NCBI GenBank assembly: GCA_015075625.1 | Contig: JABTTZ010000001.1 | Span: 1,798,001-1,862,000, forward strand | DNA from: Anaerolineales bacterium | GTDB lineage: Bacteria > Chloroflexota > Anaerolineae > Aggregatilineales > UBA2796 | DNA length: 64,000 nucleotides | Direction: 5' to 3' | Shown here: in pieces, positions 13,613 through 33,703 of the stretch | How the letters are laid out: the number at the start of each line of letters is the position of its first letter | Position numbering within the stretch: position 1 is the first letter of the stretch | The notes under the pieces: model-generated | Databases searched by the model: none | Told to the model about the DNA's origin: nothing | Seen by the model: only the letters and a program-made list of their open reading frames with translations | Program-made: the position numbers and the translations under genes

Positions 13613-13773
13613 TACAGCATTTTTCAACGAGATTGACCCCTCAGTGGTTGACAGTCCCGCTTATCACGATATGCTTACCGATGGGCAGGCGGTGGTGATC
13701 AAGGGAAAACGAACGACGCCCGTCCTTCTTGTCAGAAGGCTGGTTGCCGTCCAACCAGTGAGGGTACTGCAAT
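13613..13773 (+). repeat. MITE-like dispersed repeat, copy B (overlaps the SGNH gene end)
   Basis: Full-length copy, slightly diverged (ATATGCTTACCGATGG in the middle). Both terminal arms and the CCTTCTT/AGAAGG hairpin are conserved. The loop changes relative to copy A fall mainly outside stems. It supplies the stop codon and the last ~43 codons of the neighbouring minus-strand gene. Confidence 0.88.
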
Positions 13774-17150: not shown

Positions 17151-18134
17151 ATGACTCGTCGTGTTCGGATTGTTGTAGACAGCACCGCCGACGTGCCGCC
17201 AGAGTATCTCGCCCGCTATGACATGCGGATGATCCCCGCCTTTGTCAATTTTGGGGCGGAAAGCTACCCCGACGATGGAATCGCCCTCCCCCGCGCGGAG
17301 TTTTACCGCCGTCTTGTCGCCTCAAGCGTCCTCGCCACGACCTCTGCCCCCTCCTTGGGCGTGGCGGTGGATGGCTTGCGGGCGGCGCTGGAAGGGGTCG
17401 ATCACGTCGTCGCCCTGACGCTCTCGACAAACTTCAGCGGGATTCACAATGTTTTTCAACTGGCGGCAAAGGAGATCGATCCAGCGCGGATCACCGTCTA
17501 TGACAGCGGATCGTTGAGCATGGGCGTGGGCTGGCAGGCGCTTGCCGCCGCCGAAGCCGCCGAACAGGGAGCGCCGCCCGATGCCGTGCTGATGGCGATC
17601 CGTGAGGCACGCGCCCGGGTGGAGGTCTGGGCAGCCCCAGACACCCTCGATTATCTGCGGCGGGGCGGGCGGGTGAATGCGCTGGTGGCAGGCGTTGATT
17701 GCAGTACCCTCACTGGTTGGACGGCAACCAGCCTTCTTACAAGAAGGACGGGCGTCGTTCGTTTCCCTTGATCGCCACCGCCTGCCCATCACCACGTATA
17801 TCGTCATAAGCGGGGCTGTTAACCACTGAGGGTCAATCTCGTTGAAAAATGCTGTAAGCCAATAATTCAACTAAAAGACGGTCACCCCGAAACCATCGCC
17901 CGCGCCCGGACGATGCGCAAGGCGACAGAGAAGATTATCGATCTCGCCCGCAGCGCCGCGCCAATCGCCCGCCTTGCCGTAATGCACACCCATTTTCCAG
18001 AGGGCGCAGAGGGCATTCGGGCAGCATTGGGCGATCTTGCGCCGGCGGAGACGATCCTCATTGATGTTGGGGCGGCGACGGGCGTCCAGGTTGGTCCCGG
18101 CGCGTTAGGCGTGGCGCTCTTGCGGGAGCGTTGA
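17151..18134 (+). pseudogene. degV: degV-family fatty-acid-binding protein, split by a repeat insertion
   Basis: DegV proteins bind fatty acids and present them to the fatty acid kinase FakA. The first part (17151-17697) encodes a typical N-terminal domain: VVDSTADVPPEY, then ATTSAPSLG, LSTNFSGIHN and DSGSLSMGVGWQ, up to YLRRGGRVNALVAGV. Repeat copy C then interrupts the frame and brings a stop at 17769-17771. After the repeat the degV frame resumes as PIIQLKDGHPETIARARTM and ends at 18134 with IDVGAATGVQVGPGALGVALL, the normal C-terminus. About seven codons of the expected GSLLQIK-type segment are missing at the junction. A 206-aa truncated product could be made, but it lacks half of the lipid-binding fold, so I call it broken. 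Confidence 0.9.
17698..17856 (-). repeat. MITE-like dispersed repeat, copy C (inside degV)
   Basis: Full-length copy in the opposite orientation to A, B, D and E, from ATTGCAGTACCCTCACTGG to AACGAGATTGACCC (complement) and GCTGTA. There is no obvious target duplication. About 20 bp of degV appear to be lost. Confidence 0.92.
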
Positions 18135-26003: not shown

Positions 26004-26136
26004 TGTCTGACCAGAGAAACGAACACGGCGAGTCCCTGTACCTGAGAGTTTCACCCCCCACATTGGCGTGGTAGAGGGTTTGCCCCTTCGGTGCTTATCA
26101 TGCTTGTTGCAGAGCATGGTAAGGCTCTCCTCAGCG
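26004..26136 (-). promoter_or_regulatory. Glycine riboswitch (single aptamer)
   Basis: The minus-strand transcript contains the class hallmarks in order: GGAGAGCC, GCACCGAAGGGGCAAACCC, a short hairpin arm with TACCACGCCAATGTGGGGG, then AAACTCTCAGGTACAGGGAC. The span allows only one complete glycine aptamer, with a short extra stem (TTTCTCTGGTCAGA) next to the terminator. By analogy with gcv riboswitches it should act as an ON switch: glycine binding prevents terminator formation and lets gcvH-gcvPA-gcvPB-lpdA be transcribed. Confidence 0.93.
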
Positions 26137-26156
26137 TGCGTTGGGTTATCCCAAAT

Positions 26157-26642: not shown

Positions 26643-26801
26643 TACAGCATTTTTCAACGAGATTGACCCTCAGTGGTTGACAGCCCTGCTTATCACGATA
26701 TACTCGGTGATGGGCAGGCGGTGGCGATCAAGGGAAACGAACGACGCCCGTCCTTCTTGTAAGAAGGCTGGTTGCAGTCCAACCAGTGAGGGTACTGCAA
26801 T
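26643..26801 (+). repeat. MITE-like dispersed repeat, copy D
   Basis: Full-length copy nearly identical to copy A (main differences CAGCCCTGC and TACTCGGTG). It fills most of the 319-bp gap between the pilin and the prfA stop, which otherwise shows no gene. Confidence 0.88.
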
Positions 26802-33419: not shown

Positions 33420-33545
33420 TACAGCATTTTTCAAGGAGATTGACCCCTTAGTGGTTGATAGCCCCGCTTATCACAATATACTTACCGATGGGCTAGGCGG
33501 TGGTGATCTAAAGGGCAAACGAACGACGCCCGCCCTTCTTGTAAG
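33420..33545 (+). repeat. MITE-like dispersed repeat, copy E, 3'-truncated
   Basis: It starts like the others (TACAGCATTTTTCAAGGAGA) and is the most diverged copy. It breaks off in the CCTTCTTGTAAG hairpin and runs straight into the remnant of a hydrolase gene. Confidence 0.85.
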
Positions 33546-33547
33546 AG

Positions 33548-33703
33548 TTGCCGAACAGGAAGAATTTCGCCGCCTATAACGCCTCACCATCCGTCACAGC
33601 CTTCAAAGAATTTCCCAACCGCAATCATTACGGGATTGGGCAAGCGGGGTGGGAAGAACTTGCCGATTACGCCCTCAATTGGTTTGAACAGCAGCAAAGG
33701 TAG
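33548..33703 (+). pseudogene. 3' remnant of an alpha/beta-hydrolase gene
   Basis: Only the last ~51 codons survive, in a frame with no start codon of its own, ending in TAG at 33701. The peptide reads SVTAFKEFPNRNHYGIGQAG and then WEELADYALNWFEQQ. The FPNRNHYGIGQ-x-GWEE pattern is typical of the C-terminus of certain alpha/beta-hydrolases, where the His belongs to the catalytic triad. The rest of the gene is absent: the remnant begins two bases after the broken edge of repeat copy E. Deletion linked to the repeat is the simplest reading. With copy E it fills most of the 470-bp gap 33288-33758. Confidence 0.75.

Follow-up and report, generated by a model that had tools for sequence, protein, structure and literature searches.

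A single copy of a short, highly repeated element splits a DegV gene in the genome of an Anaerolineales bacterium. The analysis covers a window of 64,000 nucleotides (contig JABTTZ010000001.1, positions 1,798,001 to 1,862,000), and positions below are those of the window unless they carry a genome handle. The explanation that we favour, and that we consider likely, is that the insert is a non-autonomous TA-targeting MITE that entered degV, leaving a normal right junction, while its left side was cut and rejoined with loss of gene sequence.

A repeat copy interrupts degV

Positions 17151-17696 and 17856-18134, both on the + strand, together make up one DegV gene, with one repeat copy between them, as the first-pass annotation had proposed. 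The N-terminal part comprises 182 codons up to NALVAGV, matches Pfam DegV at 1e-47 over profile positions 2-177, and is 63% identical to the same-genus orthologue. The C-terminal part runs from the conserved K-P of LLQVKPII to a normal stop and matches the same profile at 9.5e-13 over positions 186-279. A whole-genome DegV search recovers both parts, and also an intact paralogue at G000:C1:2056344-2057177.

The spacing between the anchors NAL and PII is 14 residues in all 14 intact relatives aligned at the junction and 8 in the window, so exactly six codons are missing, where the first-pass annotation had correctly seen a loss and put it at about seven. The missing segment is G-T-L-L-Q-V in the homologues, and reads GTLLQV in the same-genus orthologue. 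When the frame is read through, a stop is reached 24 residues past the junction. The interrupted degV, a fatty-acid-binding-type gene, is a pseudogene, and the intact paralogue remains in the genome.

The repeat family

A search of the 4.68-Mb genome with the 159 nt at 17698-17856 gave at least 40 matches with 88-100% identity. With patterns for the left and right ends and a profile built from full copies, we count about 99 copies, 90 of them full-length. Full copies span 157-163 nt between TGCAG and GTA, contain no ORF and have no room for a transposase. The median pairwise identity is 88.5% and the maximum 99.4%, so the repeat has spread in several bursts; for 36 copies a partner exists at 97% identity or more. 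The repeat is missing from every other genome searched in the order (154), among them the sole other genome of the genus, and is therefore recent and mobile. One genome of another family among those searched holds a 33-nt low-scoring match, and a search of phage records and viral contigs gave no match.

The copy in degV (+ strand, TTGCAG...GCTGTA) is young and full-length, with its nearest relative 98.1% identical. The first-pass annotation had placed this repeat at 17698-17856; the repeat is real, and the core common to clean copies is 17699-17856. Four further copies lie in the window, all on the - strand: 1343-1501, cleanly inside a second repeat family (R2); 13613-13773; 26643-26801; and 33420-33560, which lacks the left end (profile 25-165) and has an approximate outer limit.

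The terminal inverted repeats are imperfect. The left arm, TTGCAGT-ACCCTCACTGGTT at 17699-17718, pairs in the predicted fold with the right arm, which consists of AACCACTGAGGGT, 17 nt and GCTGTA at 17822-17856, with the terminal TA at 17855-17856; read inwards from the right end it is TTACAGC-17 nt-ACCCTCAGTGGTT. Two small subterminal hairpins near the left end, CTGGTTG(5)CAACCAG and CCTTCT(4)AGAAGG (17713-17747), are kept in the consensus structure of 34 copies, where covariation is near nil (one double-change pair) as the copies are too alike.

Most copies lie outside genes, with gene context taken from ORFs and not from gene calls. This bears on the idea that intron-like removal takes the repeat out of the degV mRNA, so that the gene is not broken. 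Excision of exactly 17698-17856 leaves an open frame, 159 nt being 53 codons, but the product would still be without the six residues found in every intact relative aligned, splicing would be useless to the copies outside genes, and the repeat has no Rfam match in the window. We regard such removal as very improbable. The only Rfam match in the window lies elsewhere, a glycine riboswitch at 26020-26142 on the - strand.

The left flanks of the copies at G000:C1:119082 and C3:822710 are 98.5% identical over 200 nt, and they therefore mark a segmental duplication in which one of the two element copies is truncated. The right flank of the copy at C4:241506, GGTTCGAATCC, suggested an interrupted tRNA, a reading that we reject as ARAGORN gives no tRNA there.

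Target site and clean insertions

The element inserts at the TA of a YTA|RG motif. Copies with a clean left TA have Y at position -3 in 82%, and after the right TA the first base is G (88%) or A (12%) and the second is G (94%). The motif is asymmetric, with no matching C at -4.

Several insertions can be compared with an empty or restored site. When the flanks of the copy in a GNAT-like gene (G000:C1:1984654) are rejoined at TA, they give CGC-TTA-GGG (R-L-G) with every codon kept, matching CGG-CTA-GGG of the intact same-genus orthologue codon for codon. The first-pass claim that the element can enter genes thus holds for two genes, this one and degV. The copy at 1343-1501 in R2 has the flanks GGTAAC-TA and TA-GGGGCTGTTGAGG, which match the unfilled paralogue GGTAACCAGGGTCTGTTGAGG; that paralogue has CA for TA and is therefore a near-empty site. 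In this pair GGTAAC-TA|GGG corresponds to GGTAACCAGGG of the paralogue, and the flanks rejoin without loss of target. Two further copies split TAG stop codons, and their flanks also rejoin exactly. Because both gene cases need the RG of the motif for their codons, RG is target sequence.

Clean copies have TA on both sides. A 2-bp TA duplication and a terminal TA carried by the element predict identical sequence, so the contrast with duplication drawn in the first-pass annotation would not be settled by such sites.

The degV junctions

The right junction in degV is regular and reads GCTG-TA-AGCC, with the boundary between TA (17855-17856) and AGCC. The AAG lysine codon at 17856-17858 is conserved in DegV, and the AG after the right-end TA is therefore gene sequence. 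The left junction, at 17697-17698, is abnormal: GA stands in place of the TA of clean copies, with the A at 17698 as the sole base of the left flank that agrees with the usual TA, and the six codons are lost at this side. It reads GTTGA|TTGCAG against an expected GTT-GGN-ACN-YTN-YTN-CAR-GTTA|TTGCAG, a sequence derived from the homologues and the target rule, as is the GTT codon before the lysine. The insertion itself follows the normal type, its abnormality being confined to the left side. The loss is on that side only and amounts to a minimum of 17 nt, or to about 21 nt if the TTGA beside the element arose as a duplication during repair, which several other copies also show.

We considered whether the assembly had misplaced a repeat copy into an intact degV. 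High-copy repeats are prone to misassembly, but the two halves of the gene are in order and orientation, the right junction fits the TA|AG target rule, a six-codon loss is not predicted by misassembly, and the assembly consists of five contigs and is 98.5% complete. We regard such an artefact as very improbable.

Another alternative is that the insertion chemistry itself deletes about 17-21 nt of target as a rule. The six codons missing at the degV junction agree with this, as does hemD at C1:1019230, which lies beside an irregular left end and begins directly at GKRILI, lacking the start codon and a few preceding codons that its relatives have. Nothing is lost, however, in the GNAT-like gene or at the R2 site, and the TA is intact at 55 of 97 left ends. 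Such a rule is already largely refuted and we hold it to be improbable. The first-pass view that target is deleted or replaced and not duplicated is right in that degV has lost target; it does not extend to a general rule, since the GNAT-like gene, R2 and the two TAG stops are clean.

In the favoured explanation, a transposase acting in trans (IS630/Tc1-like at best) would move the MITE to a TA within YTA|RG. In degV it would have entered at the TA where the codons GTT and AAG (V-K) of LLQVKP meet, and the right junction would have kept its normal form. The left junction would have been cut and rejoined, during insertion or later, with at least 17 nt of degV lost, and the probable cause of this deletion is imprecise one-ended cleavage followed by repair.

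Left ends are remodelled across the family

The asymmetry of the degV junctions is family-wide: right ends are near-invariant and left ends are often remodelled. TA, followed by RG, is found at 87 of 92 right ends, and TA before TTGCAG at 55 of 97 left ends, with 42 deviating. Copies do not inherit irregular left ends, as the nearest relatives have different or regular ones; older copies have them only slightly more often (P = 0.04). About 14 irregular left ends carry an exact tandem duplication of 4 nt at the left boundary, against 1.7% expected. The duplicated letters are mostly ATTG, TTGC and TGCA, and in two copies (TACA, TTCA) they repeat the copy's own mutated terminal letters. In the copies at G000:C1:1074693 and C1:1736005, a partial left-end copy of 14-16 nt stands directly before the full element.

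We infer that the left end is cut and then repaired, giving fill-in duplications or deletions. In vitro, the ISY100 transposase, of the IS630 family, inserts at TA, and when the DNA is linear its cuts also fall 1-8 nt beyond the ends (PMC2170065). This stray cutting is a precedent for the remodelling of the left end, though no proof of it.

A further alternative is a directional, template-copying or site-specific movement, by target-primed reverse transcription, a Y1 single-strand transposase or an IS110/IS607-type recombinase. The orientation-specific YTA|RG target, the fixed right and variable left end, and the precise right junction beside a sloppy left one with filler and partial left-end copies would all suit such a route, and reverse transcriptases and Y1 transposases are encoded in the genome. 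Yet left-end truncation affects few copies, the Y1 loci lack the element's ends, and the two reverse transcriptases look, judged by eye from their sequences, like retron- or defence-type enzymes. We consider this route unlikely.

Search for a mobilising enzyme

The search for an autonomous long copy in the genome, using patterns for the left end (at most 2 mismatches) and the right end (at most 3), gave only short or truncated copies. The DDE_3 matches are three fragments whose flanks are without the element's ends. At the four Y1 transposase loci examined we found no ends matching the element, either as expected for an IS200/IS605 PATE or for a RAYT-REP pair, and the element's ends do not occur around the RVT_1 genes. 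Nothing ties the reverse transcriptases or the Y1 transposases of the genome to the element.

The locus G000:C1:342158 (L180) encodes a protein of about 1020 residues that includes a reverse transcriptase domain and is probably of defence type. The R2 family (L110, L099), which contains GCCGCTAAAGCAGCGGGC, forms arrays around an intact gene for a Y1 transposase of 142 aa at G000:C1:1725926 (L181), and these arrays together with the Y1 gene look like a RAYT-REP system. A third repeat family, with the ends TAGAC-TTACGCA...TGCGTAACGTC-TA and apparently TA-flanked too, adjoins several copies of the element (L018:2038-2195, L158:642-805 and the left flank of L003).

Left ends and start codons

In 15 of the 90 copies, a gene that reads away from the element has its start codon at most 7 nt from the left end, for example at G000:C2:567771, C4:292076 and C2:839374. 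Randomly chosen positions in those flanks give 2.9% (P = 6e-8) and other YTARG sites 1.3%, and the right end is near a start codon in two copies only. Irregular left ends cluster close to gene starts (25/39 against 12/51, P = 2e-4). These figures are indicative, as they refer to ORFs and not to curated genes and several tests were made. The outward sequence of the element, GAGGGTACTGCA, places GAGGG at a Shine-Dalgarno-like distance.

Selection could be the cause of this enrichment: deletions that reach up to a start codon could be tolerated, and those that run into a gene, as in degV, could survive only when the gene is dispensable. More speculatively, and with rather little confidence, we suggest that the element inserts in one orientation at YTA|RG and that its left end undergoes repeated rounds of 4-nt staggered cutting and rejoining. 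It would thereby be fused before start codons with its own GAGGG and act as a mobile 5' leader, and degV would be a case where this remodelling has run into the gene.

Comparison with known repeats

In its length, number of copies, inverted ends and TA target, the element works like RUP, Correia/NEMIS and ERIC. It is short, non-coding and present in many copies in one genome, as bacterial MITEs are in general, and the two filled/empty pairs place it at TA as for MITEs derived from IS630/Tc1. Ends in common with an IS630-family element, the other mark of that group, were not found in the genome. Since the searches recovered no IS630 element that shares its ends, and its target lacks symmetry, the element cannot be filed as an IS630-derived MITE.

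RUP, the repeat unit of pneumococcus, is 107 bp long, has about 108-110 copies with TIR and TA ends, and is mostly intergenic while also disrupting genes (PMC2229807, PMC3049150). The element resembles it in copy number, TIR, TA ends, mostly intergenic location and gene disruption. It is larger, with asymmetric arms, an asymmetric target and a remodelled left end; and whereas RUP is tied to IS630-Spn1 by a common TIR, we found no autonomous partner here.

The Correia/NEMIS repeats (107-155 bp) have TIR, TA termini and stable stem-loops, with a proposed action on neighbouring transcripts, and ERIC/IRU has short TIR, TA ends, hairpin-forming sequence and an orientation-dependent transcript effect (PMC2229807). 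Correia/NEMIS differs in its longer TIR (24 bp) and its hosts, and is set beside the element by description and not by sequence; ERIC/IRU differs in its hosts too. We know of no one-ended 4-nt duplications in ERIC/IRU.

The likeness to IS630/Tc1/mariner elements lies in the TA target, with ISY100 adding a TA duplication and stray in-vitro cleavage outside its ends (PMC2170065). In contrast, the YTA|RG asymmetry and the 4-nt duplications are left unexplained by that group, and no transposase is linked to the element. An asymmetric target is unusual for a Tc1/IS630-like enzyme. The stagger of IS630/Tc1 is 2-3 nt, which the size of the 4-nt duplications does not fit.

The element represents a MITE family that is specific to one species and recent enough to have broken a gene, and it offers a worked example of insertion chemistry. 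Its one-sided remodelling, across about 100 natural junctions, could reveal how such an element is cut in the cell and how it enters the leaders of genes.
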